IMG/VR virus record: IMGVR_UViG_3300017734_001485
Span: 1 to 30,758 of that record
Origin: a virus
Strand: one strand, 5' to 3'
Length of the DNA: 30,758 nucleotides
Below the pieces are notes generated by a model that was not told the origin of the DNA, made no database searches, and saw nothing but the letters and a program-made list of their open reading frames with translations. Both the position numbers and the translations under genes were made by a program. Positions 13,751 through 30,758 of this stretch are shown in pieces. Within the stretch, counting starts at the first letter, position 1, and the number at the start of each line of letters is the position of its first letter.

Positions 13751-13772
13751 TGCTAGACTATGGAAAATATGA

Positions 13773-15101: not shown

Positions 15102-15106
15102 TTAAG

Positions 15107-15249: not shown

Positions 15250-15265
15250 TTGCCTTTCTTCTTTT

Positions 15266-15529: not shown

Positions 15530-15536
15530 TTCTTAG

Positions 15537-15563: not shown

Positions 15564-15576
15564 ATTTAATTTGACC

Positions 15577-16257: not shown

Positions 16258-16259
16258 TA

Positions 16260-16424
16260 ATGCCTAGAAGTAGAGTGACTAAAATTGACATTGAAGCAAG
16301 AGTATTAAAGTTGAAAAATGAAGTTTGTAATGATGTATACAATAATCATAATGAGGATTGGTTAAAGGGTGCCAATTATAGTTTGAATAAAATTCTAGAC
16401 ACGTTACAAGAATACAGTAGTTAA
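16260..16424 (+). CDS. Small protein of unknown function
   Basis: 54 aa, ATG two bases after the previous stop. MPRSRVTKIDIEARVLKLKNEV continues into a helical DWLKGANYSLNKILDTLQEYSS. No domain. The next gene starts on its last base (TAATG). Confidence 0.55.
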   Translation: MPRSRVTKIDIEARVLKLKNEVCNDVYNNHNEDWLKGANYSLNKILDTLQEYSS

Positions 16425-16600
16425 TGAATCCAGAAGAGAAAAGGGAATTCTATAAATCTTTGAGAGAAAGAATTCATCAATTGCGGATGGGTCATCTCTT
16501 TGAAGAACCTTGCCCACTCTATGAACCAGAGTGGGATGATGATCTTTGGGACTGTCGTCTTAGTTATGATTTTAATGACGATGATTTGACAGATGGTTAG
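16424..16600 (+). CDS. Small acidic protein of unknown function
   Basis: 58 aa, translationally coupled to the previous gene. N-terminal helix (MNPEEKREFYKSLRERIHQL) then a very acidic Trp-rich end (PEWDDDLWDCRLSYDFNDDDLTDG). The final codons contain the -35 box of the promoter at 16586. Confidence 0.55.
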   Translation: MNPEEKREFYKSLRERIHQLRMGHLFEEPCPLYEPEWDDDLWDCRLSYDFNDDDLTDG

Positions 16601-16614: not shown

Positions 16615-16641
16615 TAGTATGTTCGGAATTTTTTGATAATA

Positions 16642-17226
16642 ATGGAACCTAGTAATAAGCATCAAGTTGCCGAAGATCCTTTCGTTTTCTATGAGCAGAT
16701 CATTCCTGAGAAACTAATAGATCTGATGGTAGAAGAACTACCAAAGTATGATGGATCATATGCAGAAGCAGAGATTGGAGATCTTCAGACAGGAGCATTA
16801 TTTGAAAATAAAAGAAACTCTAAAGTCTCTTGGATGTATGAAGACGATTGGGTTTCATCTATGTTTGCACACTATTTTCACTTAGCAAATAAAGAGTATT
16901 GGGAATACGACCTTAATTGTTTAGATGGCATCCAAATCACTCGTTATGATGAGGGAGATCATTACACCTGGCATTCTGATTATGGAACTGCAGAAGATAA
17001 TCGTTTTACCAGGAAGCTAAGTGCAACTCTTCTAGTCACTGATCCTAGTGAGTATGAGGGTGGTGAACTAGAGTTTATTGATTACCATAATAATCTAGTT
17101 GTTGCACCTTCCATCAAAGGAACAATGATTGTATTTGATTCTCGCATTCCACATCGTGTTCGACCTGTGACTAAGGGTACTAGAATTTCTCTTGTAACTT
17201 GGATGCTTGGTCCTAAACTAGTGTAA
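16642..17226 (+). CDS. Fe(II)/2OG dioxygenase, prolyl-4-hydroxylase/PKHD-like
   Basis: 194 aa from ATG 16642. The full oxygenase signature is visible: H111-S-D113 (YTWHSDYG), distal H171 (SRIPHRV) and R181 (TRISLVTWML) for 2-oxoglutarate, with GGELEFID and KGTMIVFDS around the beta-helix core as in prolyl-4-hydroxylase/PKHD proteins. These enzymes hydroxylate protein side chains or small molecules. Directly downstream of a strong early promoter and one base before the O-fucosyltransferase-like gene. No clear ribosome site. Substrate unknown; protein or sugar are both possible. Confidence 0.88.
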   Translation: MEPSNKHQVAEDPFVFYEQIIPEKLIDLMVEELPKYDGSYAEAEIGDLQTGALFENKRNSKVSWMYEDDWVSSMFAHYFHLANKEYWEYDLNCLDGIQITRYDEGDHYTWHSDYGTAEDNRFTRKLSATLLVTDPSEYEGGELEFIDYHNNLVVAPSIKGTMIVFDSRIPHRVRPVTKGTRISLVTWMLGPKLV

Positions 17227-17227: not shown

Positions 17228-18367
17228 ATGGTTAGATATATTTCTTTTAGTCCTTATTATTCTGGACTAGTGAACATTATAATGTCATATGAAATGTTCT
17301 TGGCAATTGCAGCAATCACTAAGAGGAAGGTTATTCTTCCTCCAGATTGTTGGATGCTTTTCCTGTCTAAGAGTCAAAAGAAAGAAGACTGGATTGACTT
17401 CTGGAAGATCTTTGATAAGGAAGTCCTTCTAGAAGAATTTGATTGTATTGAACATAAAGATGTACCAGAGTTCCGAGGAAAACTGGGAAAGATGCAGGGA
17501 AAGGATTCTTATACGAAAGACCTTGGAAAGTGTGGATTGGATCTTGCTGAAATCTTTTTTGACTCATCTACAGTATCTGATGAACATACTGTATTTGTAA
17601 ATGAAGAAATTGATACTCAAGACTTTCATGATTTCTGTCACGATAGAACTGTGATGGAACTTGATTGTGATGAGAAGTTTATGCACTTTGAGAACAATCT
17701 GTTTGGCCATTACTGGTATCATGTTTATCCTGGTGGTGAAAATCTTAGGAATAAACTAAAGGATAAAGTGAATAGAGTTTTGAGATATAATGATAAATTT
17801 TATTTCTATGCAGATACGGTCCACCAAGAACTTGGACCATTCAATTCTATTCACGTCAGACGAAACGATTTCTTAGATGCAAGAGAGGATGAGATTCAAT
17901 GCGTAAATGCTCCCGAGAAGATTTTGGAGATGGTAGATAGACTTCCATTCTATGATAAGTCTTTACCTCTTTATATTGCTACTGACGAGCAAGATAGATC
18001 ATTTTTTGATTTACTTGGGGAGAAGTATGATATTCACTTTTATGAAGATTTTGATTATAAGTTTGGTGATGACTTTGAGGAAGATGATCTTCATATTGCG
18101 GTATTGGAACAAACAATATGTTCACAGTCTGAGAACTTCTTTGGAACTTATCTATCAACATTCTCGAAAAGAATTAATATTATGAGAGGTCTTGAGAATA
18201 GACAAGCAGAAGATCATTTAGGTATTAATCATCTACCAGAAGAACCAGATGAGAACTTAGTAGATGTGTTTCCTTGGAGAAAGATGTCTGATAATACTTG
18301 GCAATGGAATTCATCATCACACTTGCAGTGGATGCATGAAGAGAATGGTAAATTGGTTGAATTATGA
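17228..18367 (+). CDS. O-fucosyltransferase-like GT-B glycosyltransferase
   Basis: 379 aa. SIHVRRNDF (H209-x-R211-R212-x-D214) is the GDP-fucose-binding motif shared by O-fucosyltransferase-like and alpha-fucosyltransferase families, followed by a helical region and ENFFGTYLSTFSKR near residues 300-315, which matches the C-terminal motif of protein O-fucosyltransferase-type enzymes. N-terminal SPYYSGLVNIIMSYEMFLAIA resembles the family's GG(L/F)NNQ-type opening. With GDP-fucose synthesis genes downstream, transfer of L-fucose is the likely activity. Acceptor unknown. It overlaps the next oxygenase gene by 4 nt (ATGA). Confidence 0.75.
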   Translation: MVRYISFSPYYSGLVNIIMSYEMFLAIAAITKRKVILPPDCWMLFLSKSQKKEDWIDFWKIFDKEVLLEEFDCIEHKDVPEFRGKLGKMQGKDSYTKDLGKCGLDLAEIFFDSSTVSDEHTVFVNEEIDTQDFHDFCHDRTVMELDCDEKFMHFENNLFGHYWYHVYPGGENLRNKLKDKVNRVLRYNDKFYFYADTVHQELGPFNSIHVRRNDFLDAREDEIQCVNAPEKILEMVDRLPFYDKSLPLYIATDEQDRSFFDLLGEKYDIHFYEDFDYKFGDDFEEDDLHIAVLEQTICSQSENFFGTYLSTFSKRINIMRGLENRQAEDHLGINHLPEEPDENLVDVFPWRKMSDNTWQWNSSSHLQWMHEENGKLVEL

Positions 18368-19059
18368 AAGACGTTTTACAACCTATATTCAATGATGTCC
18401 CTTTTATAAAAGTAAAGGTTCCTGATAATCTTTATTCGTTCATGATGGATGAATATAAGAATCTAGTCTTTGATATCAAAGATCAAGACATTACTTATGA
18501 TAGAAATTATCAAACATATACGAGTGGTGGAATTTCAATTAAAGGTTCTAGAACACCTTTTTGTATGAAGACTGAGATATCTCAGGAACTTTATAATATG
18601 TGTTATGAAGAGATCACTCCTATGATTGAGGAATGGTCTGGTCAAGAGTTGGAAATGACTTGGGCATATGGTATTAGAAATTATGTTCGGGATTCCATAC
18701 TTCATCTTCACAGAGACCGAATTGAAACTCATATAATTAGTTGTATAATTTATGTTGACCAACAATCTAAAGAGAATTGGGCATTGGATTTTTTTGATCA
18801 TGAACATAATCATCACAAAGTTCTTTTTGAACCTGGTGATATGCTCTTCTACGAAAGTCTATGTTTGCATGGAAGAATTGATCCTTTCCAAGGAGACTAT
18901 TATAGAAACATGTATTTCCACTGGAAACCAATCGATTGGTGGTATGAAGATTTGTATGACCTGAGAACCGATTTTAGAGATGGAGCAGAATTTAGAAACT
19001 ACTATGGACAAGAATATCTCTACAACAGAGAAGAAAGAGTCATCCCTAGAACTATTTGA
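18364..19059 (+). CDS. Fe(II)/2OG oxygenase
   Basis: 231 aa, coupled by ATGA overlap to the fucosyltransferase-like gene. Oxygenase ligands: H116-R-D118 (LHLHRDRIETH), distal H169 (SLCLHGR, preceded by FEPGDMLFYES) and R181 (YRNMYFHW). N-terminal domain begins MKDVLQPIFNDVPFIKVKVP, and the tail is rich in Tyr and acidic residues. Likely hydroxylates a protein or glycan, possibly the acceptor or product of the adjacent glycosyltransferase (inference from adjacency). Confidence 0.85.
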   Translation: MKDVLQPIFNDVPFIKVKVPDNLYSFMMDEYKNLVFDIKDQDITYDRNYQTYTSGGISIKGSRTPFCMKTEISQELYNMCYEEITPMIEEWSGQELEMTWAYGIRNYVRDSILHLHRDRIETHIISCIIYVDQQSKENWALDFFDHEHNHHKVLFEPGDMLFYESLCLHGRIDPFQGDYYRNMYFHWKPIDWWYEDLYDLRTDFRDGAEFRNYYGQEYLYNREERVIPRTI

Positions 19060-19138
19060 ACCACCTGACGAACTGGCACAGGTGGAAGATGACGAGGACT
19101 ACATCCTATGGTATCATAATCATAACCAGGGTTCTTGA
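19004..19138 (+). CDS. Small acidic ORF overlapping the oxygenase end
   Basis: 44 aa in a different frame, overlapping the 3' end of the preceding gene by 56 nt. It starts MDKNISTTEKKESSLELFEPP and ends QVEDDEDYILWYHNHNQGS. I think I recall similar small acidic proteins in cyanophages, but that is not checked. Reading continues past the oxygenase stop without interruption up to 7 nt before the tRNA. Confidence 0.5.
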   Translation: MDKNISTTEKKESSLELFEPPDELAQVEDDEDYILWYHNHNQGS

Positions 19139-19145
19139 TACCACT

Positions 19146-19218
19146 GCTTCCTTAGCAATCTGGTGAATGCAGCAAACTCATAATTTGCCTAAGGTGAGTT
19201 CGATCCTCACAGGAAGCA
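19146..19218 (+). tRNA. tRNA with CAT anticodon (Met elongator, or Ile2)
   Basis: Acceptor GCTTCCT/AGGAAGC, D-stem GCA/TGC with GG in the loop, anticodon stem GCAAA/TTTGC with loop CTCATAA, T-arm GTGAG/CTCAC with TTCGATC loop, discriminator A. G1-C72 pairing excludes a standard initiator. Elongator Met is the simplest call; an Ile tRNA carrying lysidine cannot be excluded from sequence. Confidence 0.92.
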
Positions 19219-19241
19219 TTGGGATTGACTTTCAGTCCCAA
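19219..19241 (+). other. Hairpin just downstream of the tRNA
   Basis: TTGGGA paired with TCCCAA, extended inward by GTGA-type pairs to about 10 bp with a tiny loop. No T run follows. It abuts the tRNA 3' end, so it may be a processing signal; its inner TTGACT also serves as a possible -35 box. Confidence 0.5.
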
Positions 19242-19253
19242 ATCTGATAAACT
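19225..19253 (+). promoter_or_regulatory. Possible sigma70 promoter
   Basis: TTGACT, 17-nt spacer, TAAACT. Five of six and four of six matches; weaker than the promoters at 15073 and 16586. It precedes the ATG at 19277 by 23 nt. Confidence 0.35.
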
Positions 19254-19276
19254 ATTCGAGTAATTTACACAAGACC

Positions 19277-19492
19277 ATGACTATCACTGCTAAGTTCAAG
19301 AAGGATCTCAATACCCTTCGTTCTGCTGCAAACGGTGAAATTCTTCTAGACGTGAAGAATCCAAAACTTTTTAAAAAAGTACGTCGTTATTATGAGAACG
19401 ATGGTGTTGTATTCTCTGGTGATCCACTTGATGACTATGATATCCTGATGGAACAAGTTGCTATTGATCTTGAGTCTGTGGAGGTTGCGTGA
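19277..19492 (+). CDS. Conserved cyanophage protein of unknown function
   Basis: 71 aa. Begins MTITAKFKKDLNTLRSAANG and contains LFKKVRRYYENDGVVFSGDPLDDYDILMEQV, a mix of basic and acidic patches with predicted alpha/beta content. No domain recognised. Its end overlaps the GTG start of the following gene by 4 nt. Confidence 0.65.
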   Translation: MTITAKFKKDLNTLRSAANGEILLDVKNPKLFKKVRRYYENDGVVFSGDPLDDYDILMEQVAIDLESVEVA

Positions 19493-19764
19493 ACGATCTA
19501 GATCCTAAGTCTGTTGCTTCAACAAAGACTATTGTTATTCATGAACGATTTCCTTATCGTTTTGTTCAACGAGGATATATTCAATTGAATGGTAAACCAG
19601 ATTTTCGTATGCAAAAAGCAAATGAGTATACTAAAAAATACTCTGATGTTTATTTGTTTGACAATGGTGATCAAATGCTTCTTGCAATTGAAGACCCAGA
19701 ATATCCTAAATGGTTAGATCCAGATGGTGTACCTTGTTATGTTAAAGACTCGGCAAGTCGTTAA
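19489..19764 (+). CDS. Conserved cyanophage protein of unknown function
   Basis: 91 aa with a GTG start overlapping the preceding gene's TGA (GTGA). It contains TIVIHERFPYRFVQRGYIQLN, a basic middle (MQKANEYTKKY) and a Pro/Asp-rich tail (DPEYPKWLDPDGVPCYV). No membrane span or catalytic motif. Position at the head of the glycan locus is the only hint of role. Confidence 0.65.
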   Translation: MNDLDPKSVASTKTIVIHERFPYRFVQRGYIQLNGKPDFRMQKANEYTKKYSDVYLFDNGDQMLLAIEDPEYPKWLDPDGVPCYVKDSASR

Positions 19765-19799
19765 ACTGGCCCTGGTCGGAGTATTATTTTAAATCAAAT

Positions 19800-21350
19800 A
19801 TGTTTAACCTGGGTATTCATGGTTCTCACAATGCAACACTTGCATTGTCTTATGAAGATGAAGTTTTAGAAGTAGTAGAACTTGAGAGATTTATCTCTCA
19901 TAAAAATGCTGCTCTATATTTCTATGAGAAACCTCCCCATAGAATTAACTATGTGAGAGAGATTAGTGAATACTTTAAAAGAAAATATAATTTTGATAAG
20001 TATGATTTGATTGCTATCAATTCTATATCGGAAGAAGTATTTCCTTGGAAAGATGTATTTGGTGATGCTCATATTGAGTATTGTGATCACCATGTTGCTC
20101 ATACTTGCTGTGCCTTTTATCAGTCACCATATAGAGAAGCACTAGTTGTTTCTTTTGATGGTGGTTCTGATGAAGGGTTCTTCAATGTTTATACTATGAA
20201 GAGAGGTGAAGACCCAGTAAGAATTCATCATGGAGAAAAAGACTATGCAGTGTCTTACATGGCACCAGGACACTTCATCCCTGCTATTCATAATGAAGAA
20301 GATATTTACCAGGGTAATCTAGTTTATCCTGGTAAGTTGATGGGGTATGTTGGGTATGGTAACTATCGTAAAGATCTTGCTGAAAAATTAATTGAATTCT
20401 ATGAATCGAATACTTATGATGATGTTCCAGATGCTGTCTGTAGATTTGTAGAAAAGTTTGGACTAGAAGATTGGTCTCAACAATTCGGACTACAAGATGC
20501 ACAGGATATTGCAACAACTAATCAAATTGTATTTGAGAAGTTGTTCAAAGAAGAGATACAACCATTCTTAGATGAGTATTCAGATTTGCCTCTGATTTTG
20601 ACTGGTGGTTGTGCTCTGAATATTATCAATAACACTAACATTGCAAGAGAACGTAGAGTTTTCGTTCCACCAAATCCTAGTGATTGTGGTATTGCATTGG
20701 GTGCATTATTATTCATTATTAAACCAGAACGTCAGATTGATATCACTTATTCTGGTCCACCTGTGTGGGATAGAATGGAGATTGGTCGATACTTGCGTGA
20801 ACGGGAAAATGCACAAGACATCTCTGCCAAAGAAGTTGCAAAGATTATTCTTGATGGTGGTATTGTTGGTGTAGTTCGTGGTGGATCTGAGCATGGTCCT
20901 AGAGCACTAGGGAATAGAAGTCTCTTATGTGATGCGACTAATCCCGATATGAAAGATATTATGAATCTTGATGTGAAGAATCGGGAATCATTTAGACCCT
21001 TTTCTCCAATTGTAAGACTTGAAGATTTGAACAAGTATTTTGATTGGGAAAAAGAGTCTAGACATATGACTTTTTCACCAGAGGTAAGACCAGAGTATCG
21101 CAAATTGCTATCTTCTGTTACTCATGTAGACGGAACTGCAAGAGTTCAAACAGTTACTAGAAAGCAGAATGAATATATCTACCAGATTTTGGGTGAACTA
21201 GATACTTTATCTGGTCATGGAGTTCTACTTAATACTTCTTTTAATGTAGCAGGTAAACCAATCTTGAATACATATAAGGAAGCATTTAAAGTTCTTGACA
21301 CAAAACCCATAACTGGGTTAGTCCTAGAAGATTACTATTTTCCAAAATGA
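19800..21350 (+). CDS. NodU/CmcH-type carbamoyltransferase
   Basis: 516 aa. Family motifs: GIHGSHNATLALSYED at the N-terminus, DHHVAHTCCAFYQSP and VVSFDGGSDEGFFNVY in the Kae1/ASKHA-like domain (residues about 1-310), LTGGCALNIINNTNI, then GGSEHGPRALGNRSLL and RESFRPFSPIV in the C-terminal YrdC-like domain. Such enzymes carry carbamoyl from carbamoyl phosphate, through carbamoyl adenylate, to a sugar hydroxyl (for example on Nod factors or antibiotic sugars). Somewhat shorter than typical 560-600 aa members. It overlaps the cupin gene by 4 nt. A glycan in this locus is the probable acceptor (inference). Confidence 0.92.
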   Translation: MFNLGIHGSHNATLALSYEDEVLEVVELERFISHKNAALYFYEKPPHRINYVREISEYFKRKYNFDKYDLIAINSISEEVFPWKDVFGDAHIEYCDHHVAHTCCAFYQSPYREALVVSFDGGSDEGFFNVYTMKRGEDPVRIHHGEKDYAVSYMAPGHFIPAIHNEEDIYQGNLVYPGKLMGYVGYGNYRKDLAEKLIEFYESNTYDDVPDAVCRFVEKFGLEDWSQQFGLQDAQDIATTNQIVFEKLFKEEIQPFLDEYSDLPLILTGGCALNIINNTNIARERRVFVPPNPSDCGIALGALLFIIKPERQIDITYSGPPVWDRMEIGRYLRERENAQDISAKEVAKIILDGGIVGVVRGGSEHGPRALGNRSLLCDATNPDMKDIMNLDVKNRESFRPFSPIVRLEDLNKYFDWEKESRHMTFSPEVRPEYRKLLSSVTHVDGTARVQTVTRKQNEYIYQILGELDTLSGHGVLLNTSFNVAGKPILNTYKEAFKVLDTKPITGLVLEDYYFPK

Positions 21351-21694
21351 ATCATGTAACTAAACCGTGGGGTTGGTATAAAGATCTTGAAAGACACCAT
21401 AATATGGTAATTAAAAAGATTTACATCAAACCTTTTCAGAGAATTTCTCTTCAAAAACATGCTTACAGAGATGAGTTTTGGTATATTATTTCTGGTTCTG
21501 GAAAGGTACTAGTTGGTAATGAAAATCTTTTAGCAGATCCAGGTGTAACTTTTACTATTGGTAGAGGTGAAATTCATAGAATCGAAGCATGTGCCGATGG
21601 CATTACCTTCTTAGAAGTTCAGGAAGGTGAATGTAAAGAGGACGATATTGTTCGTTTAGATGATGATTATAATAGAGTCACGGACGGACTGTAA
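21347..21694 (+). CDS. Cupin, mannose-6-phosphate isomerase type II-like
   Basis: 115 aa single cupin. KPWGWYKDLER opens it; KPFQRISLQKHAYRDEFWYIISGSGKV carries the metal-binding HxxxxxE motif and later IGRGEIHRIEA the second His, as in the isomerase domain of bifunctional ManA/GMP enzymes; GECKEDDIVRLDDDYNR matches the domain end. It would interconvert fructose-6-P and mannose-6-P, the first step towards GDP-mannose, which the gmd, fcl and epimerase genes use. Phosphomannomutase and GDP-mannose pyrophosphorylase are not in the window and could come from the host or elsewhere in the phage. Confidence 0.8.
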   Translation: MNHVTKPWGWYKDLERHHNMVIKKIYIKPFQRISLQKHAYRDEFWYIISGSGKVLVGNENLLADPGVTFTIGRGEIHRIEACADGITFLEVQEGECKEDDIVRLDDDYNRVTDGL

Positions 21695-21729
21695 CAGTAC
21701 TGGTGGAGTCAATTGACCCTATTAGGTTT

Positions 21730-21750
21730 CTTGTTTCCTTAAAAAACAAG
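21730..21750 (+). other. Hairpin in the intergenic gap
   Basis: CTTGTTT (21730-21736) and AAACAAG (21744-21750) form a 7-bp stem. It lies upstream of the terminator in a 137-nt gap that also holds the perfect palindrome GTCAATTGAC (21708-21717). I see no gene or tRNA in this gap. Role unknown. Confidence 0.4.
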
Positions 21751-21769
21751 TGGCGAGCCTGCAAGACCC

Positions 21770-21795
21770 AGAGGGAATATTTTCCCTCTTTTTTT
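21770..21795 (+). terminator. Intrinsic terminator
   Basis: AGAGGGAA, loop TATT, TTCCCTCT and a T run. Ends the carbamoyltransferase-cupin unit. Confidence 0.93.
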
Positions 21796-21797
21796 AT

Positions 21798-21805
21798 TCT
21801 AAATA
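21798..21805 (+). promoter_or_regulatory. Late-promoter variant TCTAAATA
   Basis: Same TCTAAATA form as at 13743, again just after a terminator, and 26 nt before the ATG at 21832. Confidence 0.5.
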
Positions 21806-21831
21806 TTACATGACGTTCAAATCAAATTAAA

Positions 21832-22149
21832 ATGGCATACAAAGGAACAGCAGCAAAATCTTCAAGTGGTGCATCTATGTCAAAGTATGACGTAGAAGTC
21901 GAAGCAAGACTAACAGCACTAGAATCAGAAGCACATGCAAAACCAACTGGTGCTACCGCAGCAAAAGTTGAAGAAAGACTATCTGCTCTAGAAGCAAAAG
22001 CACATGCACCTTCTTCTGGTGGTGGTAAAGGTGCTAAACTGGATGCAGCAGCACTTCCAGCAACAGCAGCTAGAAAGATAACTCCTGCACAAGGAAGGAT
22101 CGACGCACTAGAAGCAAGACTTGAGGCATTGATTGCACAACTTTCCTGA
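21832..22149 (+). CDS. Ala/Glu-rich coiled-coil protein, probably structural
   Basis: 105 aa. Heptad-like repeats of the form VEARLTALESEAHA, VEERLSALEAKAHA and IDALEARLEALIAQL recur three times, joined by Gly/Ser/Pro linkers (SSGGGKGAKL), predicting a coiled coil with flexible joints. A late-promoter variant precedes it, so it is likely a virion or late protein rather than a glycan enzyme. It resembles short coiled-coil proteins of cyanophage virions. No catalytic motif. Confidence 0.7.
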   Translation: MAYKGTAAKSSSGASMSKYDVEVEARLTALESEAHAKPTGATAAKVEERLSALEAKAHAPSSGGGKGAKLDAAALPATAARKITPAQGRIDALEARLEALIAQLS

Positions 22150-22155
22150 TAACTT

Positions 22156-22770
22156 ATGTCAATTGAATTGATTCCTTTATTTTCTGTCCCTGTTATTAAG
22201 TTTAAGTTTAGTAAGCATAATAAGTATAACTTCCCAATCATCGAAAGGAAAGAACGTATTCCTGATGGTTGGGAAGTTTCGCTTAATAGTTCTTTCCCTC
22301 GTATTGAAGATGATGATCCATATATTTTTCCTGAGACTAGGGATTGTATAGAAAAGGATTTATTTGCGGATATACGAGTAGTATTAAAACGTCTCGGAAT
22401 ATCATATGAGGGTGCTTTCTTCGACAGTTTTTGGTATAATGTATATCATGATAATCAAGGTCAAGAACCTCATGATCATATAGTAAGTGCTGGAGATACT
22501 AATACATATTGGTCTGGAATTTATTATAATGTGGGAGCATCACCAACAAAGTTTCATAATGCACATAGATATATGAAACTTTGTATACCACCAGAGGTTC
22601 ATCCAGACTCACCGATTTCAGATATGTATTCCGATATGTGTGATCAAGAAGTTGAAGATGGTGATGTAATTTTATTTCCACCCTGGTTGGTTCATGAGGT
22701 AATTCAAGACAAAACTAGAACTGACATGAGATTGACATTTACCTTTAATGTAGGATATAATCATGAGTAA
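22156..22770 (+). CDS. Putative 2OG-Fe(II) oxygenase (PF13759-like)
   Basis: 204 aa. [23 protein letters not shown] carries H106-x-H108, the form seen in the PF13759 oxygenase group (PHxHxxS); [10 protein letters not shown] follows; then [11 protein letters not shown] with H180 and MRLTFTFNV with R192 for 2-oxoglutarate. N-terminus [16 protein letters not shown] is the usual family opening. These enzymes are common in cyanophage genomes; substrates are unknown. It overlaps gmd by 8 nt. Confidence 0.85.
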
Positions 22771-23791
22771 TGCAAAAAAGAAAATGAAAACGGCATTAAT
22801 TACTGGTATCACTGGACAGGATGGTTCTTATCTTGCTGAGTTGTTACTTGAGATGGGTTATATGGTGCATGGCATTGTTCGGAGAGCATCTCTAATCAAC
22901 ACTGCTCGTATTGATCATATCTTTGATCATGAACGAGTTAAGTTGCATTATGGGGATCTATCTGATTCTGCAAATATTGTTCATATACTTCAGAAGTGTC
23001 AACCTGATGAGATTTATAATCTTGCAGCACAGAGTCATGTTAAGGTATCTTTTGAGATGCCTGAGTACACAGGTAATGTTGATGGTCTAGGAACACTTCG
23101 TATCCTTGAGGCAGTCCGTATTTTAGGTATGGAGAAGAAGTGCCGTATCTATCAAGCATCAACGTCTGAGATGTATGGTCTTGTTCAGGAGTCTCCTCAG
23201 ACTGAGACCACACCTTTCTATCCACGTTCTCCATATGGATGTGCAAAGGTTTACTCCTATTGGATCACAAAGAACTATCGTGAATCCTATGGAATGTATG
23301 CTTGTACTGGCATTCTATTCAATCATGAATCACCTCGTCGTGGTGAGACCTTTGTAACTCGTAAGATCACTCGTGGTCTTTCTCGTATTTCTGTTGGAGA
23401 GCAAAAGGTTCTCTATCTTGGAAACCTAGATGCAAAACGAGATTGGGGACATGCAAAGGATTATGTTCGTGCTATGTGGTTAATGCTGCAACAGGATGAA
23501 CCTGATGATTTTGTGATTGCTACTGGAAAGCAGTATTCAGTTCGTGAATTTGTAGAAAGAGTTGCTCCTTACTTTGGAATTACAATTGAATGGGTTGGTG
23601 AGGGTGATGATGAGATTGGTATGGATAAGCATACTAGGAAAACAATTATTGCTGTCCATCCTAAATATTATCGTCCTGCTGAAGTTGAAACTCTTCTTGG
23701 TGATGCCACCAAAGCAAAAGAGAAACTAGGATGGGAACCTGAAATTTCTTTCGATGAACTAATTGAGGATATGTGTATCTATGGACAATGA
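22763..23791 (+). CDS. gmd: GDP-mannose 4,6-dehydratase
   Basis: 342 aa SDR-fold enzyme. [21 protein letters not shown] is the NADP-binding GxxGxxG start; [35 protein letters not shown] and ASTSEMYG are GMD-specific; Y158-x-x-x-K162 (YGCAKVY) is the catalytic pair; [16 protein letters not shown] and [20 protein letters not shown] complete the GDP-sugar site. It converts GDP-mannose to GDP-4-dehydro-6-deoxymannose. The start at 22763 overlaps the oxygenase stop region; a second ATG at 22784 begins the conserved sequence. It overlaps the next gene, fcl, by 11 nt. Confidence 0.97.
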
Positions 23792-24788
23792 TTCAAGAAT
23801 TTTTCTTGCTGGTCATAATGGTTTAGTTGGGTCAGCAATTCTTAGAAAGTTAAGGGCAGAAGGATATAATAATATTATTCTTGCTGATAGATCTGTTGAT
23901 CTTAGGTATGCTGATCAAGTACGTTCATTCATTAGTGAATCAACACCAGATTATGTTATCTGTGCTGCAGCTAAAGTTGGTGGCATTCTCGGTAATAGAG
24001 ATTATAAAGCAGATATCATCTGGGATAATCTAATGATTCAATCAAATCTGATTGATCAATCATGGGATTGGAATGTTAAAAAACTTCTTTTCCTTGGATC
24101 ATCATGCATCTATCCAAAACATGCTCCGATTCCAATCAAAGAGGAATCTCTATTGACTGGTCTTTTGGAACCAACGAATGATGCTTATGCAATTGCAAAG
24201 ATTGCAGGTATCAAGATGTGTCAATCATATCATGAGCAGTATGGATGCAACTTTATTAGTGCAATGCCTTGCAATCTGTATGGTCCTGGTGATAATTTTC
24301 ATCCAGAAAAATCTCATGTTCTTCCTGGATTGATTCGTAGATTCCAAGAAGCAAAGGAACAGAAATTGCCAACAGTAACTTGCTGGGGTGATGGTTCACC
24401 TTTACGTGAGTTCTTGCATGTCGATGATCTTGCTGATGCTTGTTTATATTTGATGAATAATTATGATGATCCTCAAAATATTATTAATGTTGGATCTGGA
24501 ATTGAAGTTTCAATTAAAGAACTTGCTGAGACTATTGCTGATGTAGTGGGATATAAAGGTCTTATTATGTGGGACACTGAAAAACCAAACGGAACGATGC
24601 GTAAGGTAATGGATGTCTCTAGAATCAAAGCAACTGGATGGGAACCAAAGATTGGTTTGCGTGAAGGTATTGAATCTACCTACAAATGGTTCATTGATTA
24701 TCGAGGTGAAGCCAGAGGTATGGATGATCTTGAAGGTGAAGTGGATGAGATTCTTAAAAATAATTGTTGTAAAGGATGTAGTGAATAA
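23781..24788 (+). CDS. fcl: GDP-L-fucose synthase
   Basis: 335 aa from ATG 23781 (frame open from 23763). It carries [13 protein letters not shown] (NADP site), [15 protein letters not shown] (catalytic Cys), Y136-x-x-x-K140 (YAIAKIAG) and [20 protein letters not shown]136 and K140 have the same numbers as in E. coli GDP-fucose synthase. The enzyme epimerises and reduces the gmd product to GDP-L-fucose. The gene overlaps gmd by 11 nt and the epimerase gene by one base, forming one coupled unit. Confidence 0.97.
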
Positions 24789-25777
24789 TGAAAACAGCAT
24801 TAGTATGTGGAGCAGGTGGCTTTATTGGAAGTCACATGGTTCGTCGTCTCAAGAAAGAAGGGTATTGGGTTCGTGGTGTTGATCTAAAGTATCCAGAGTT
24901 TTCAGAAACAGAAGCAGATGAGTTTATTATTGGTGATTTGACTGATGATGCATTAGCATTAAATGTTTGTAATCGATCCTTTGATGAGATATATCAGTTT
25001 GCTGCTGATATGGGTGGAGCAGGTTATCTCTTTACGGGTGAGAACGATGCAAATATTATGCATAACTCTGTTCAGATTAATCTGAATGTTTTAAGAGCAG
25101 CATCAATTACATCGATTGATACTACAAAGATTTTCTATTCATCTTCTGCTTGCGTTTATTCAGAATTAAACCAGGAGGATGTGAATCATATTGATACATC
25201 TGAGGCAAGTGTATATCCTGCACAACCAGATTCTGAGTATGGGTGGGAGAAACTATTCAGTGAGAGACTCTTCTTTGCATTCGCAAGGCAGTATGATCTA
25301 GATGTAAAGGTTGCTCGTTATCATAATGTATTTGGTCCTGAGGGAACCTGGACTGGTGGTAAGGAGAAAGTACCTGCTGCTATGTGTCGCAAGGTTGCAG
25401 AGGTTCCTGAAGTTGGTGGACATGTCCAGGTTTGGGGTAATGGTGAGCAGACAAGATCATTTCTATTCATTGATGAATGTATTGAAGCAACATATCGTTT
25501 GATGCAATCTGATTGGAGTGGACCAGTTAATATTGGTTCTGAAGAGATGGTTACTATCAATCAACTTGTAGATATTGTTTCTAATGTTTCTGGAAAACCA
25601 GTTCGTAGAGTTCATAAGATTGATGCCAACTGTATTGGTGTTAAGGCACGTAACTCTAATAATGATTTAATTCGTAAGATGCTAGAATGGGACTATACGA
25701 TGTCTTTGAAAGAAGGTATTGAAATTACTTACGATTGGATTAGTACACAAGTTCGGGAGTCTAATAAATGTTCTTAG
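24788..25777 (+). CDS. GDP-mannose 3,5-epimerase homologue
   Basis: 329 aa SDR-fold protein. Start [34 protein letters not shown] and IMHNSVQINLNVL follow; SSACVYSE has C122; Y151-x-x-x-K155 (YGWEKL); HNVFGPEGTWTGGKEKVPAA has K194; then WGNGEQTRSFLFIDECIE and VKARNSNN. Distances C122-Y151 (29) and Y151-K194 (43) equal those of the plant GDP-mannose 3,5-epimerase residues C145, Y174 and K217. That enzyme makes GDP-L-galactose (and L-gulose) from GDP-mannose. A phage version next to gmd/fcl is unusual. It overlaps the next gene by 10 nt. Confidence 0.9.
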   Translation: MKTALVCGAGGFIGSHMVRRLKKEGYWVRGVDLKYPEFSETEADEFIIGDLTDDALALNVCNRSFDEIYQFAADMGGAGYLFTGENDANIMHNSVQINLNVLRAASITSIDTTKIFYSSSACVYSELNQEDVNHIDTSEASVYPAQPDSEYGWEKLFSERLFFAFARQYDLDVKVARYHNVFGPEGTWTGGKEKVPAAMCRKVAEVPEVGGHVQVWGNGEQTRSFLFIDECIEATYRLMQSDWSGPVNIGSEEMVTINQLVDIVSNVSGKPVRRVHKIDANCIGVKARNSNNDLIRKMLEWDYTMSLKEGIEITYDWISTQVRESNKCS

Positions 25778-26616
25778 TAGCAACAACACGGTCGGTATTA
25801 TATGTTCGTGAAGATAATGTGATCACTCCTGTAGATCGTGGTAAAGGTCTTTATTACGGTCTAACAAAAAACTTTGGTAAGTATTATGTTGCTTGCCGTA
25901 ATAGTGATCCCACAAATACTAATACTTTTATTCCTCCTGAAGAAGAGAGTGGAGATATTATTGTATTAGATAATAGATTACGAGCAGATACAATTCTTGA
26001 ACCAGAAGATTTCAAATTGCAAGATCTTCATGGTATTGGATTCTGGTCTGGTAAACTTCTCTGCACCTCAAGTTATGGTGATTACATTGCAATCTATGAT
26101 GGTGAGAAGTGGGACAGATGGCAACCGATTCCACCAAGACGTAACTGCAGTTATCGAGATAGTCATCACTTAAATACTATCTACGGAACAGACAATCGTT
26201 TATATATCCTTGCACATAACTGGGATAATGGTAGTTTTATTCTTGAGTTTGATGGTATTGGTCAACCACCAAGAAAGATTCATAATAATATGGGTATTCA
26301 ATGTCATGATCTTTGGTTGTATAAGGGTGATATCTATACTCTGAGTTCTAAAGAGGGATGTGTAAGATCTACTGGTGGTTTTGTAAAAGATCTGGGTGGA
26401 TGGGTACGTGGTTTTGCTCATGTTGATGATCACTTCTGGGTCGGTGTTTCACCTACAGCAAAGAGAAGTGATAGGGCATTTGGTGATGCTCTCATTCGTA
26501 AGTATGATGAGAACTGGAATCAAGTTGATGAACTTATTTTAGAAGACGAGGGTCAAGTCCTAGCAATCCTTGATATTGGACGCAAGGCATCTAATCCACA
26601 ATTGGCAATGATATGA
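25768..26616 (+). CDS. Beta-propeller-like protein (DUF4915-related)
   Basis: 282 aa with repeated short beta-strand blocks: LYYGLTKNFGKYYVACRN, HGIGFWSGKLLCTSSYG, NRLYILAHNW, CHDLWLYKGDIYTLSS and GWVRGFAHVDDHFWVGVS. This is the pattern of a small beta-propeller and resembles DUF4915-type proteins found beside glycosyltransferases. No catalytic residues are evident. Its position between sugar-nucleotide enzymes and glycosyltransferases suggests glycan recognition or handling, but the role is unproven. It overlaps both neighbours by a few bases. Confidence 0.65.
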   Translation: MFLVATTRSVLYVREDNVITPVDRGKGLYYGLTKNFGKYYVACRNSDPTNTNTFIPPEEESGDIIVLDNRLRADTILEPEDFKLQDLHGIGFWSGKLLCTSSYGDYIAIYDGEKWDRWQPIPPRRNCSYRDSHHLNTIYGTDNRLYILAHNWDNGSFILEFDGIGQPPRKIHNNMGIQCHDLWLYKGDIYTLSSKEGCVRSTGGFVKDLGGWVRGFAHVDDHFWVGVSPTAKRSDRAFGDALIRKYDENWNQVDELILEDEGQVLAILDIGRKASNPQLAMI

Positions 26617-27482
26617 AAATTTATATTTGGGGTCATAAACTCCACGAACATACTCATAGTTACATTCATGCCTCATACTGTAAGGCATTTGAATATCTTG
26701 GACATGAAGTATATTGGATTGATTCAAGAGATGATCTAAGTCAGTATGATTTTAATGATTCAGTTTTCTTTACGGAAAATTTTGTAAAAGGTGGAATGCC
26801 ACTTCGTAAAGATTGTAAGTATATTACTCATCATATTGACACAAAGTATTTGACTAATTCTGGTGTTCTATATGAGAATGTTTTGAAGTTGGGGAACTAC
26901 TTGCCAAGTTTAGAAGTTCATGAAAAGGTAGATCACTTAGCATATTGGGATGAATCTACTCGAACTCTTTATCAACCTTGGGGAACTGACTTGTTACCTA
27001 ATGAAATTGATGAGAATAATCCTGCTAAGTTTGATCATAATAATAAATCTTTAAATTATATTGGAATGCTTTATGAGCAAGGACCATGGTGGGCACAATT
27101 ATTTGCGGATATTCTTTGGGAAAATAAACGAGTAGAATTTAAAGTCTTCACACAGAACGCATCGTTTGAAGAAAACCTACAGATGGTCAGGTCATCTTAT
27201 TTGTGTCCTGACTTTAGAAGTGATTGGCACTTGCAATGTGGATACATTCCGTGTAGAATATTCAAGAACATTAGTTATGGTAGAGTGACTGGAACCAATT
27301 CACCTTTTGTAAAACGTGCATTTGGTGATTATGTTGCATACGGTGGCACACCAGATACCTTATATTCAAATCTGCTAGAAGCTGATGCTGGCGGAGATAT
27401 TGACATCAGATCAGCAATGCTTTTTGTCAAAGAAAATCATACATTCATTAACAGAGTTAACACTATCTTGAAGTTCTTATGA
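26613..27482 (+). CDS. CgeB-like GT-B glycosyltransferase
   Basis: 289 aa. The N-terminal half carries MKIYIWGHKLHEHTH and GHEVYWIDSRDD (nucleotide-like Rossmann segments); the C-terminal half has LNYIGMLYEQGPWW, CPDFRSDWH and IPCRIFKNISYGRVTGTNS, which aligns with the (R)xFExxxxGxxxxxN region of CgeB/GT1-type proteins. Donor and acceptor are unknown. No Gly-rich phosphate loop is clear, so activity is probable rather than proven. It overlaps the GT11 gene by 4 nt. Confidence 0.7.
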   Translation: MKIYIWGHKLHEHTHSYIHASYCKAFEYLGHEVYWIDSRDDLSQYDFNDSVFFTENFVKGGMPLRKDCKYITHHIDTKYLTNSGVLYENVLKLGNYLPSLEVHEKVDHLAYWDESTRTLYQPWGTDLLPNEIDENNPAKFDHNNKSLNYIGMLYEQGPWWAQLFADILWENKRVEFKVFTQNASFEENLQMVRSSYLCPDFRSDWHLQCGYIPCRIFKNISYGRVTGTNSPFVKRAFGDYVAYGGTPDTLYSNLLEADAGGDIDIRSAMLFVKENHTFINRVNTILKFL

Positions 27483-28267
27483 TCGGTTTTAATCATTTAG
27501 GTCAACACGGAAGACTTGGTAATCAAATGTTTCAATATGCCGCACTTCGTGGTATTTGTGCAGCACGTGGATATGATTTCTGCATTCCTCAATCTGATTT
27601 TGTAGATGAGTGGAAGGACCATCAGTTGTTTGAGACTTTTAAACTTCAGCATAATAAAAATCGTGGGTATCAACTTCAACCAGATTATTATCAGGAGAAG
27701 CAATTTCATTATGATCAGGAGTATGTAGATAACTGTCCTGATCAGATTTGCCTATATGGTTATTTTCAAACTGAAAGGTATTTTGAAAACATTGCTGATA
27801 GTATTAGAGAAGATTTCACTTTCCATGATGAGATTGTAGAAACCTGTCAAGGTTTTATTAGTCAAGTGGATAATCCTATTGCACTTCATGTTCGCAGGAC
27901 TGATTATGTTTCTAAGTCTGCAGATCATCCACCATGTAGTTCTGAATATTATGAAGATGCACTGTCTAAGTTTGATGGTGATCGTAATGTAATTGTATTC
28001 TCTGATGATCCCGAGTGGTGTAAAGAGCAAGAACTATTTGAATCTGATCGATTTATGGTTGCTGAAGGGAATGATAATCGTTATGATATGTGCTTAATTT
28101 CATTGTGTGATGACTTTATTATTGCAAACTCCTCTTTCTCTTGGTGGGGTGCCTGGTTGGCAAATCGTGGATCTGTGATTGCACCTTCCCGTTGGTTTGG
28201 TGATGATGGATACACTGCAAAGAATGACACCTGTGATATTGTTCCCAAGAGGTGGATCAAACTATGA
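27479..28267 (+). CDS. Alpha-1,2-fucosyltransferase, GT11 family
   Basis: 262 aa. GRLGNQMFQYAALRG at the N-terminus, LYGYFQTERYF, ALHVRRTDYVSK (H137-x-R139-R140-x-D142) and ANSSFSWWGAWLANRGSVIAP with a final PSRWFG are the GT11 motifs seen in bacterial FutC/WbsJ enzymes. It transfers L-fucose from GDP-L-fucose in alpha-1,2 linkage, so it is the direct user of the gmd/fcl product. Slightly shorter than the usual 280-300 aa. It is followed, with 4 nt overlap, by a GT2 gene. Confidence 0.93.
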   Translation: MIGFNHLGQHGRLGNQMFQYAALRGICAARGYDFCIPQSDFVDEWKDHQLFETFKLQHNKNRGYQLQPDYYQEKQFHYDQEYVDNCPDQICLYGYFQTERYFENIADSIREDFTFHDEIVETCQGFISQVDNPIALHVRRTDYVSKSADHPPCSSEYYEDALSKFDGDRNVIVFSDDPEWCKEQELFESDRFMVAEGNDNRYDMCLISLCDDFIIANSSFSWWGAWLANRGSVIAPSRWFGDDGYTAKNDTCDIVPKRWIKL

Positions 28268-28992
28268 TTGATTTATCAATTGCTATTCCCACATATGAGA
28301 TGGGTGGAGTAGGTCCTGAATATCTTAGGGAACTTTTTACTAGTATTGCAAGTCAAACTTATAAAAACTTTGAGGTCTGCATCTCAGATCATTCTAAGGA
28401 TGATTCTACTCTTGAAGTATGTGAAGAGTATTCTCAAGACTTTACGATTCAATACTTTAAGAATGAAGAGGATCGTGGTAATGGTCCAGCAAATACAAAC
28501 TCCGCAGTTGAGATGTGTTCTGGTCATTACACCAAACTCATCTTTTCTGATGATCTTTTTATTGATGAGAATGCTTTTGATATCATTGTTAGAACACTTA
28601 AAGAAACTGATTGTAAGTGGTTATTCAGTGGGTTCAAACACACATCAGACGGCAGAAATTTTGTAAGACCCATGATTCCTAGATGGTGTGATATGATGTT
28701 AGAGGGTAGAAACCTTCTTGGTTCACCTTCTTGTGTTGCATTTGAAACGGAGAGTTTTGTGGGATTTGATTCTAAATTAAAATTGCTAATGGATACCGAC
28801 TTCTATCACAGAATGAAGTGTCAAAATGGTGATCCTGGATTAGTTGAACAATACTTAGTTGCTAATCGTGAACACCCAAATAGAATTAGTTCTTCTAATG
28901 TGGACTACAACTATCGATTCGATCATCCAGAAGGATCATGGGTTGTAAATAAAGAGGAATTAGATTACGTTTTAGAAAAAAATAAAAGATGA
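28264..28992 (+). CDS. Family 2-type (GT-A) glycosyltransferase
   Basis: 242 aa from the ATG at 28264, which overlaps the GT11 stop (ATGA); an in-frame GTG at 28252 is less likely. LSIAIPTYEMGGVGPEYLRELF and SIASQTYKNFEVCISDHSKDDST are the GT2 opening, then KLIFSDDLFID (acidic metal motif) and MDTDFYHRM in the acceptor-side region. Likely adds a sugar to the glycan; donor is undetermined. Part of the coupled run of glycosyltransferases. Confidence 0.88.
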   Translation: MIDLSIAIPTYEMGGVGPEYLRELFTSIASQTYKNFEVCISDHSKDDSTLEVCEEYSQDFTIQYFKNEEDRGNGPANTNSAVEMCSGHYTKLIFSDDLFIDENAFDIIVRTLKETDCKWLFSGFKHTSDGRNFVRPMIPRWCDMMLEGRNLLGSPSCVAFETESFVGFDSKLKLLMDTDFYHRMKCQNGDPGLVEQYLVANREHPNRISSSNVDYNYRFDHPEGSWVVNKEELDYVLEKNKR

Positions 28993-29822
28993 AAAAGATC
29001 GACCTATCTAATGCAACCTTCATTGTTCCAATCAGATTAGAATCTGATGATCGATTGAGGAATGTAATTACGAGTTTGTGTTATATTCTTGCAAACTTTA
29101 AAACAAATGTAATAGTACATGAAGTTGATTCCGAGTCTGTATTTGCAGAAAGTGCTTTACCACAGATTACGGAATTTCTTGATGGGGATGTAGGAGATCT
29201 TAAACATATTTTTGAGCAGTCTGATGCACCATCATTTCATAGACAGAGAGTTCTCAATGATATGATTATGATGTCAACTACTAAAGTAGTTGTGAATTAT
29301 GATTGTGATGTTCTACTTCCCAGAGAAACATATCAACATGCATATGAGATCATTAACAATGATCATGCAGATGTAATCTATCCATATGGTGATGGTAATT
29401 GGCAGTATCAAGTCTTTGCTGACGATGAACTTGTTACGGAATTCCTTACCAATGATTTCAACATGAAGATTCTAAATAAGAAGACTAAAGTCTACATGTC
29501 TAAGTATGGGTTTTGTCAGTTCTTCAATAGAGACATCTATATCGAAGGTGGACTGGAAAATGAAAACTTTGTAGCATACGCTCCAGAAGATGTAGAAAGA
29601 TATCATAGGTTTACAACTCTTGGTTACAGAGTTGGCAGAGTTCCTGATTGGGTTTACCATTTGGAACATGCCAGGACTCCAAATTCATGGGTTAATAATC
29701 CACACATGCAAGAAAATAATGCAGAGTGGGAAAAGATACAGAAAATGCAACCTAATGAATTAAGAGAGTATATCGATAGTCAAGAGTATTATCAGAAAAG
29801 ATTATGTCAAACACAACAATAG
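28989..29822 (+). CDS. GT-A glycosyltransferase (galactosyltransferase-like)
   Basis: 277 aa. Beta-strand opening NATFIVPIRLESDDRLRNV, VVNYDCDVLLPRETY (DxD-type motif), CQFFNRDIYIEGGLENENF followed by APEDVERYHRFTTLGYRVGRVP and YHLEHARTPNSW. This layout matches capsule-type GT2/galactosyltransferase proteins of the Glyco_tranf_2_2 kind. Donor is unknown; a galactose-type donor would fit the epimerase in this locus (speculative). It overlaps neighbours by 4 and 19 nt. Confidence 0.8.
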   Translation: MKKIDLSNATFIVPIRLESDDRLRNVITSLCYILANFKTNVIVHEVDSESVFAESALPQITEFLDGDVGDLKHIFEQSDAPSFHRQRVLNDMIMMSTTKVVVNYDCDVLLPRETYQHAYEIINNDHADVIYPYGDGNWQYQVFADDELVTEFLTNDFNMKILNKKTKVYMSKYGFCQFFNRDIYIEGGLENENFVAYAPEDVERYHRFTTLGYRVGRVPDWVYHLEHARTPNSWVNNPHMQENNAEWEKIQKMQPNELREYIDSQEYYQKRLCQTQQ

Positions 29823-30496
29823 CAGTAGTTACTTCGTCTATCGGAACGAATAATTTAATTACTCCAGAGAAATGGTTGGATAAAGTTGACTACCATGCTT
29901 TTGTAGAACCACATCAACTATCCGTTGGTGACATGTGGCATAGACATGAGTACGTTAGTTTTTCATTAGACACAAAATATAAGAATAGGAGAGACGCAAA
30001 GATCTATAAAATATGTCCTCATCTATTTCTTCCAGGATATGATTATTATATTTGGATGGATTCTACACATACTTTAGAAGCAGATCCAGAAGAACTGATT
30101 GAAGATTATTTGAAAGGTTCTGAAATTGCAGTCTTCCAACATCCCGAAAGGGATTGTGTATATGAAGAGGGAAATCTAGTCAAACAGATTGGGTTTGATC
30201 ATGCTAACTTAATAGAAGATCAACTTGACTTCTATAGAGAGATGAAGTATCCTGAACATAATGGTTTATATGAACTTCCTGTACGAATTCAAAAGAACAA
30301 TGGCCGAACAAAACAACTTGGTTTGATGTGGTGGGAACAAATCTGTATGTTCTCGTCAAGAGATCAAATTAGTTTTCCTTTTGTTTGTGAGCAGTTAAAT
30401 ATTAAACCAAATATTATTCCTGGAAGAGCAAACACTATTCGAGGAAACAAATATATACCACAAGTCGTAAGTTCTCATCATAGTAGAGTTGGTTAA
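29804..30496 (+). CDS. DUF616/TOD1-MUCI70-like glycosyltransferase
   Basis: 230 aa. AVVTSSIGTNN start, then DAKIYKICPHLFLPGYDYYIWMDSTHTLEADPEELIEDYL and AVFQHPERDCVYEEG, the characteristic DUF616 core (RDAKIYKI-P...YDYYIWMD). Plant relatives (TOD1/MUCI70) act in cell-wall glycan synthesis. A GT-A-like fold with the MDST motif as metal site is expected. Overlaps the preceding gene by 19 nt. Acceptor and donor unknown. Confidence 0.85.
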   Translation: MSNTTIAVVTSSIGTNNLITPEKWLDKVDYHAFVEPHQLSVGDMWHRHEYVSFSLDTKYKNRRDAKIYKICPHLFLPGYDYYIWMDSTHTLEADPEELIEDYLKGSEIAVFQHPERDCVYEEGNLVKQIGFDHANLIEDQLDFYREMKYPEHNGLYELPVRIQKNNGRTKQLGLMWWEQICMFSSRDQISFPFVCEQLNIKPNIIPGRANTIRGNKYIPQVVSSHHSRVG

Positions 30497-30758
30497 TGTG
30501 TAGTTTTCTTTTTACGGATAAAGAAGTAAATGATTTTGATTATACAAATCATTATATGAGATTCCGTGGACCTGATGAAACAAATAGTATTAATGTTAAT
30601 GAGTATACAATTGCCCATAACATCCTCTCTATCACTGGAGTTTTTGCATCACAACCATTTATAGATCACGATGATGAGATTGTGTGTGTCTATAATGGTC
30701 AGATTTATAATCATAGAGATTTTGGTGATTATGGATCTGATGGCAGATGTATTATTCC
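30496..30758 (+). CDS. Asparagine synthetase-type amidotransferase (5' part)
   Basis: The first 87 residues of a gene running off the window. Start MCSF gives the N-terminal nucleophile Cys2 of class II glutamine amidotransferases; YMRFRGPDETNS carries the RGPD motif and VCVYNGQIYNHRDFGDYGSDGR matches the FNGEIYNH and S/D substrate-site motifs of AsnB-like enzymes. The synthetase half is outside the window. In glycan loci AsnB-type enzymes can amidate sugars or other acids, so a glycan role is plausible here. ATG overlaps the preceding stop by one base. Confidence 0.88.
   Translation, partial: MCSFLFTDKEVNDFDYTNHYMRFRGPDETNSINVNEYTIAHNILSITGVFASQPFIDHDDEIVCVYNGQIYNHRDFGDYGSDGRCII

Follow-up and report, generated by a model that had tools for sequence, protein, structure and literature searches.

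The question raised by this locus is whether a phage that encodes both a sugar-nucleotide pathway and transferases able to spend its product is committed to that one sugar. The locus lies at positions 17228-30758 of IMG/VR virus record IMGVR_UViG_3300017734_001485, the whole of which (30,758 bases) was analysed and is here called the window, and which, judged from its sequence, is a fragment of a T4-like cyanophage. A preliminary description had read the locus as a phage-encoded fucosylation module in which gmd and fcl supply GDP-L-fucose to a GT11 fucosyltransferase and an O-fucosyltransferase-like enzyme. The genes that it named (gmd, fcl, GT11, the O-fucosyltransferase-like gene, a cupin and further glycosyltransferases) are all on the + strand at that place, both transferase assignments hold by profile, and donor synthesis and two fucosyltransferase-type families do share one phage locus. 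The module is real; the fucose-only reading is nevertheless incomplete, having overlooked a third short-chain dehydrogenase, behind fcl, whose nearest solved relatives are GDP-mannose 3,5-epimerases (GME). In the phages that we examined, the usual partner of GT11 is GDP-L-galactose synthesis by GME. The genes on which the argument turns are the following.

17228-18367, + strand: PF10250 O-fucosyltransferase-like enzyme (60.3 bits, cut-off 31.5; HxRRxD invariant; POFUT2 the best solved relative, 2e-8)
22763-23791, + strand: gmd, GDP-mannose 4,6-dehydratase (GMD; TIGR01472, 564.4 bits, equivalog cut-off 415)
23781-24788, + strand: fcl, GDP-L-fucose synthase (FCL; NF047922, 456.3 bits, cut-off 500; 1e6u, 5.3e-103)
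24788-25777, + strand: gme, GME, for GDP-L-galactose (GME structure 2c59, 9e-79; S, C, Y, K, K and R invariant in 22 sequences)
27479-28267, + strand: GT11 glycosyltransferase, an alpha-1,2-fucosyl- or L-galactosyltransferase (PF01531, 110.8 bits, cut-off 23.9)

Gene identities, motif conservation, gene order and co-occurrence were established by computation. Chance or artefact was rejected as an origin of the locus because profile scores lie far over their cut-offs and gene order is conserved in a named phage, Synechococcus phage S-SCSM1 (record taxonomy Kyanoviridae, Zhoulongquanvirus). The island matches S-SCSM1 at 85.6% DNA identity over 99% of its length and window positions 1-16600 match it at 84.5% over 79%, and the order of the S-SCSM1 locus (L002) is kept for 19 of the 19 window genes tested. 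The start of fcl was taken from the S-SCSM1 match, the listed open reading frame (ORF) opening at 23763. Motif columns were aligned in relatives of GMD, FCL, GME, GT11, the PF10250 protein, the cupin and two of the three oxygenases (oxA and oxB), using residue and motif lists that we take to be the relevant ones. GMD passes its equivalog cut-off and, over 18 sequences, keeps T, Y and K of its T/E and YxxxK motifs invariantly and E in 17, with one change of E to A. FCL does not reach the equivalog cut-off of NF047922, which is missed likewise by all seven FCL genes found in the phages compared below; its nearest solved relatives are GDP-fucose synthetases, and the catalytic S, C, Y, K and H are all present in the window, with C, Y, K and H invariant and S kept in 16 of 17 sequences (one S to A). 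In GT11, HxRRxD is invariant over 24 sequences and GNQxFQ and SFSWW nearly so (G to A in three of 24, S to T in one of 24), and the PF10250 match spans profile positions 10-324 of 326, nearly the whole domain.

Donor genes were compared across 28 phage genomes, hand-picked for variety after matches to GT11 (the best 40 of 104 phage records), FCL (the best 60 of 78) and GME had been listed, and the resulting proportions are not population rates. Nineteen of the genomes came from the GT11 list, one from the GME list and three from the FCL list, and five were controls drawn from DNA matches; 26 are titled complete, and S-SKS1 and AG-345-L05 are titled genomic sequence. GT11 was found in 22 genomes, GME in 16 (at least 61% identity), GMD over its cut-off in seven and FCL above 420 bits in the same seven. 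The 22 GT11 phages comprised 15 with GME only, five with GMD and FCL only (DSL-LC02, S-SRM01, ACG-2014f, P-SSM2 and DSL-LC03), one with both (S-SCSM1) and one with neither (B23), and GT11 was present in all 16 GME genomes. Six phages were without GT11, namely S-SKS1, which has GMD and FCL, and the five controls, which are without donor genes. The 19 genomes from the GT11 list alone, chosen with the GME and FCL listings already known, divided into 14 with GME only, three with GMD and FCL only, one with both and one with neither. A Fisher test of GT11 against GME over the 28 genomes, uncorrected for kinship and choice, gave p 0.0025. The gme and GT11 genes overlap by 4 bp in Bellamy, S-CAM9, S-8S55 and S-PRM1 and by 14 bp in SynMITS9220M01.

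Scans of IMG/VR for GT11 and for GME each yielded the best 80 of about 600 loci, and the merging of near-identical loci reduced 258 loci to 153 groups, which include the window fragment (L001) and S-SCSM1. Among GT11-fetched loci with at least 8 kb upstream, taken one per group, gme was found in 19 of 28 and gmd with fcl in two, both of which also carry gme, while nine had neither. Loci fetched by the GT-B protein listed below held gme in 13 of 24 cases and fcl in nine of 24. A further 48 IMG/VR records, hand-picked and mostly fragments, with L102, L146, L250, L252 and L257 taken for their fcl, showed GME only in 25, FCL only in 10, both in six and neither in seven.

Host capacity was surveyed in the family that includes Synechococcus sp. 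CCY 9618, over 101 genomes. FCL was found in 72 of these at E 1e-60 or better (70 of the 72 at 48% identity or more), and GME, sought with one query at the same limit, was found in none of the 101. The query itself works, given that it was positive in 16 of the 28 phages and 31 of the 48 virus records. At face value, these counts suggest that GDP-fucose is often a host product and that GDP-L-galactose is what the phage adds, in which case L-galactose may be a sugar that the host cannot make.

GDP-L-fucose and GDP-L-galactose differ at carbon 6 only, and GT11 may accept both. On the pattern of co-occurrence, we consider it most likely that GT11 uses GDP-L-galactose or accepts both donors. The matched pair of donor and transferase put forward in the preliminary description thus stands in so far as the GDP-L-fucose genes are present, and is questionable as regards GT11, which is mostly accompanied by GME in the phages examined. 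Several observations weigh against our preference. Close kin of the window are of mixed donor type, and two close GT11 relatives, L101 (86% identity in GT11) and L102 (72%), carry fcl in records of 44-53 kb that showed no gme; GDP-fucose may thus be the donor for the window's own GT11. On a GT11 tree (98 rows, built by a quick method, with some genes present twice through overlapping loci and one row on a very long branch), donor type is clustered, GME-only rows requiring 18 changes against a shuffled mean of 28.9, yet it switches at least 10 times between GME-only and FCL-only; a sign test over independent pairs points towards exclusion of the two without reaching significance (median p 0.25). 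That the Synechococcus family surveyed holds hosts of such phages is an assumption, and the absence of GME from it hangs on one query and one limit (E 1e-60), below which a divergent host GME could fall.

We did not keep the idea that the window GT11 belongs to a clear GME-partner lineage, as the tree places it in a supported, mixed-donor group of 10 rows: six with both donors, two with FCL only, one with GME only, which is a fragment starting at gme, and one with neither, which is L100. That close relative (L100:8052-9068) has gmd (91%) and the GT11 run, with no fcl or gme found in its 21.8-kb record; it may therefore rely on a different 6-deoxy sugar as donor or obtain its donor from another source.

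The remaining features of the island, whose genes are tightly packed with short overlaps, are listed below; besides gme, the preliminary description had passed over the NodU-like carbamoyltransferase, all three 2-oxoglutarate-Fe(II) (2OG-Fe(II)) oxygenases, the GT-B-fold protein, the beta-propeller and the sub-threshold wcaG RNA. Model confidence is given as the predicted local distance difference test (pLDDT) and the predicted template modelling score (pTM).

16633-17226, + strand: oxA, 2OG-Fe(II) oxygenase (PF13640, 65 bits, cut-off 27; HxD, H and R invariant in 11 sequences)
18364-19059, + strand: oxB, 2OG-Fe(II) oxygenase-like (PF13640, 17.2 bits, under the cut-off of 27; HxD, H and R invariant in 11 sequences)
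19145-19219, + strand: tRNA-Met(cat) within the island (ARAGORN; absent from Rfam output at gathering score)
19800-21350, + strand: NodU/NolO-like carbamoyltransferase (PF16861, 190 bits; PF02543, 65 bits; phrog_1601)
21347-21694, + strand: cupin, C-terminal domain of type II mannose-6-phosphate isomerase (PF01050, 75.8 bits, cut-off 23.6; Q, H, R, E, W and H invariant in eight sequences; counterpart named MPI in the S-SCSM1 record)
21678-21764, + strand: wcaG cis-regulatory RNA RF01761, sub-threshold (35.8 bits, gathering score 42, E 5e-5)
21832-22149, + strand: small Ala/Ser/Thr-rich protein (ORF; relatives upstream of gmd or gme)
22156-22770, + strand: oxC, 2OG-Fe(II) oxygenase (PF13759, 40.2 bits, cut-off 27)
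25768-26616, + strand: predicted beta-propeller protein (AlphaFold2 from 10 sequences, pLDDT 87, pTM 0.87)
26613-27482, + strand: predicted GT-B-fold glycosyltransferase (AlphaFold2, pLDDT 92.6, pTM 0.89; Foldseek)
28264-28992, + strand: GT2 glycosyltransferase (PF00535, 58.8 bits; start from S-SCSM1 synteny, the ORF opening at 28252)
28989-29822, + strand: GT2-like protein (phrog_15655, a phrog without function, 407 bits; PF00535, 18 bits, under the cut-off of 23.3)
29804-30496, + strand: TOD1/MUCI70-type glycosyltransferase (PF04765, 69.2 bits, cut-off 21.4)
30496-30758, + strand: first part of a gene for an asparagine-synthase-type glutamine amidotransferase, which runs off the window (GATase_6, 25.8 bits, just under the cut-off of 27; the complete S-SCSM1 counterpart matches Asn_synthase)

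From these genes we infer enzyme activities, donor choice, acceptor and purpose as follows, in a reading that we favour by a little: a T4-like cyanophage similar to S-SCSM1 would use this island to remodel glycans, dividing host GDP-mannose between two phage pathways. The cupin isomerase may draw in host fructose-6-phosphate, and the host would probably supply phosphomannomutase and GDP-mannose pyrophosphorylase; a Pfam scan of 20 window proteins recognised neither of the two, and neither is annotated in a 49.5-kb stretch of S-SCSM1. The earlier view that the set was "this complete" was accordingly too strong. GMD and FCL would convert GDP-mannose to GDP-L-fucose and GME would convert it to GDP-L-galactose, from donor genes placed behind a candidate wcaG RNA element. 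The cytosolic GT11, GT-B, GT2, TOD1-type and PF10250 transferases would then assemble or cap an oligosaccharide, with GT11 working on GDP-L-galactose or on both donors, and the product would be further carbamoylated and perhaps hydroxylated. The likeliest acceptor would be a host envelope glycoconjugate altered during infection, with a virion protein second. Two observations detract from this proposal. The proteins scanned included no recognised initiating transferase, flippase, polymerase or ligase, so a host intermediate or proteins are probably what the phage works on, and the wcaG match is under the gathering score of 42 both in the window and in S-SCSM1 (37.2 bits).

The alternative closest to the original description, that phage-made GDP-L-fucose is the donor for GT11 and the PF10250 enzyme alike while GME serves another end, we regard as possible but doubtful. 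GT11 and PF10250 are fucosyltransferase families, gmd and fcl belong to the run of genes that holds the transferases, a close GT11 is kept alongside fcl in L101 and L102, where no gme was found, and fcl lies beside or near GT11 in DSL-LC03, ACG-2014f and the L250/L252 loci; yet GT11 occurs more often with gme and without gmd and fcl in the phages examined, and since Synechococcus-family genomes often encode FCL (72 of 101), phage gmd and fcl may be unneeded for GDP-fucose. A gene named NodZ downstream in S-SCSM1 would also fit a fucose role. Decoration of phage structural proteins by the cytosolic enzymes, as in chloroviruses and as proposed for some mycobacteriophages, seems to us unlikely. 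Structural proteins are made in the cytosol, where the island enzymes would act, and genes named as virion proteins lie about 9-16 kb upstream of the S-SCSM1 island; in chloroviruses, which have GMD and GMER genes of their own, the major capsid protein bears fucose (PMC5408694), and capsid glycosylation by phage glycosyltransferases has been proposed for some mycobacteriophages (PMC11256854). Against this, the NodU-like carbamoyltransferase, the GT2 enzymes and the wcaG RNA indicate synthesis of the polysaccharide type, and the virion proteome section of the S-SCSM1 paper reports no glycan modification, although perhaps none was sought (PMC9602691). The S-SCSM1 record gives the name virion protein to several products encoded upstream of the nrd genes and to none from the island.

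The downstream NodZ-named protein (L002:34483-35274) is perhaps also encoded just past the window end. It scores 22 bits to PF10250 (cut-off 31.5) and matches no other Pfam family, and relatives occur in eight other locus groups. Tblastn with the S-SCSM1 protein returned S-SCSM1's own two records only, although a separate NodZ match is listed in the paper on S-SRM01 (PMC8557907); NodZ therefore could not serve to indicate fucose use.

Strict use of fucose is likelier for the PF10250 enzyme than for GT11. The PF10250 gene is rare: PF10250 occurs in one of the 28 phage genomes (S-SCSM1) and over cut-off in six of the 48 IMG/VR records, with 10 near loci in a scan, and tblastn of the window protein matched two of 50,697 phage records, both S-SCSM1. 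A weak scan of bacterial and archaeal genomes with two short peptide patterns found no relatives. The catalytic glutamate of POFUT2 seems to be Ser in the window protein, and L123, a 22-kb record, has PF10250 and gme with no fcl found, which tells against a strict fucose role. Across the 153 locus groups, oxA and oxB accompany PF10250 in all nine groups that have it, whereas oxB was found in none of the other 144 and oxA in five of them, and in eight of the nine groups PF10250 and oxB either overlap or stand no more than 10 bases apart. This co-occurrence and close spacing suggest that PF10250 and oxB form a working pair, perhaps for hydroxylation followed by fucosylation. In its full form, the proposal would have oxA or oxB hydroxylate a protein residue to which the PF10250 enzyme adds L-fucose, as a unit separate from the GT11 polysaccharide genes. 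The linkage, the conserved HxD, H and R of both oxygenases and the status of POFUT2, a protein O-fucosyltransferase, as nearest solved relative by sequence speak for it. We nonetheless think it improbable: common descent of the nine groups, in which the genes are close, suffices to explain the linkage, many of the 144 are fragments that need not reach oxB, oxA occurs in five groups without PF10250, and 533 bp separate oxB from PF10250 in L123. S-SCSM1 has 24 such oxygenase genes, so an oxygenase beside any given gene is not rare.

A wider proposal would join these threads: that cyanophage GT11 "alpha-1,2-fucosyltransferases" are mostly L-galactosyltransferases which, with phage GME, mark the infected cell or virion with L-galactose from a donor that the host does not make, and that the window adds host-type fucose by a separate PF10250 enzyme coupled to a 2OG oxygenase. 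Taken whole, we hold it to be rather doubtful. A literature search returned no paper joining L-galactosyltransferase, fucosyltransferase and GDP-L-galactose, and of six papers matching both GDP-L-galactose and phage, only the S-SCSM1 paper was phage-related by title.

The wcaG element was clearer in relatives than in the window. Four relatives score 84-94 bits in the same gap upstream of gmd, from the cupin or carbamoyltransferase side to the small ORF; the window copy fits well in its 3' half but strays from the consensus in its first hairpin, which runs into the end of the cupin gene. At gathering score, wcaG was found upstream of donor genes in eight of 12 IMG/VR gmd and fcl records (L096, L101, L102, which is the same as L258, L103, L146, L152, L250 and L252; none in L005, L007, L009 or L257) and in two of seven gme-only loci (L114 and L123), for which 1.6 to 6 kb upstream of gme is in view; the count omits L143 and L105, in which the stretch upstream of fcl is cut, and the sub-threshold window and S-SCSM1 copies. 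Cyanophage wcaG RNAs were described by Weinberg 2010 (PMC2864571).

Two proteins were assigned from predicted structures. That at 26613-27482 is predicted to have a GT-B fold, its best Foldseek matches being bacterial glycosyltransferases such as Gtf3, GtfC and SenB (E about 1e-5, template modelling score (TM) about 0.55). We considered whether it glucosylates DNA, as its S-SCSM1 relative is named DNA beta-glucosyltransferase and DNA alpha- and beta-glucosyltransferases are among the matches (ranks 13, 17, 23 and lower), but other bacterial glycosyltransferases rank higher and the gene sits in a glycan gene run; the model being closest to these other enzymes, the name may mislead. The protein at 25768-26616 resembles LRP6/BtuG2-type structures (E about 1e-7, TM about 0.6). 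Its relative in S-SCSM1, the only phage in whose records one was found, is named coatomer subunit alpha, and there are eight close IMG/VR loci and more distant copies in L102 and L103.

Three smaller observations were made. The tRNA-Met shares 97-100% identity over about 74 bases with a stretch in cyanophages such as ACG-2014e and S-CAM4, and its site is a possible recombination point. The small protein at 21832-22149 has relatives upstream of gme in GME-only loci as well. Among its possible roles are those of structural protein and glycoprotein acceptor, and the S-SCSM1 record does not label its relative a virion protein. A 258-kb virus record carries a group I intron (L016:19333-19535, 80.7 bits) near a PhotoRC-II RNA.

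The link between GME and GT11 is the part of the finding worth testing. Should GT11 indeed use the product of the GME with which it is paired, many phage genes carry the wrong name and cyanophages would be placing on surfaces a sugar foreign to their hosts, which would bear on superinfection exclusion, grazing and virion recognition; the link narrows the vague statement that phages carry lipopolysaccharide (LPS) genes to a directly testable claim. If GT11 uses fucose only, the island is an ordinary one, already published.

Among known systems, Nod factors are decorated by NodZ- and NodU-type enzymes. The window likewise has a carbamoyltransferase of the NodU/NolO kind, and S-SCSM1 the NodZ-named gene downstream, but no chitin-oligomer synthase was recognised among the proteins scanned. 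Chloroviruses share virus-encoded GDP-L-fucose synthesis with the window, and their GMD and GMER have reported activity in vitro (PMC5408694); they are, however, viruses of eukaryotic algae with the glycan on the major capsid protein, whereas activities and acceptor in the window are predicted. P-SSM2, for which 24 LPS genes were recorded together with the idea that they alter the host surface (PMC2984593), is a T4-like cyanophage that matches gmd, fcl and GT11 as the window does and, unlike the window, has no GME or PF10250 match. Nearest of all is the S-SCSM1 glycan island (MK867354, ORF112-135), the counterpart of the window island with the same genes in the same order, although the window ends within the asparagine synthase gene. 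The novelty that the preliminary description saw in the set, with two fucosyltransferase families in one phage, was rejected, as the 2022 paper on S-SCSM1 already lists GMD, FCL, GME and three fucosyltransferases; it names GME, and the parts of it covered here discuss neither the pairing of GME with GT11 nor the absence of GME from hosts (PMC9602691). By sequence, the window island is thus a fresh member of the published S-SCSM1 type of glycan island, and most of it was known already.

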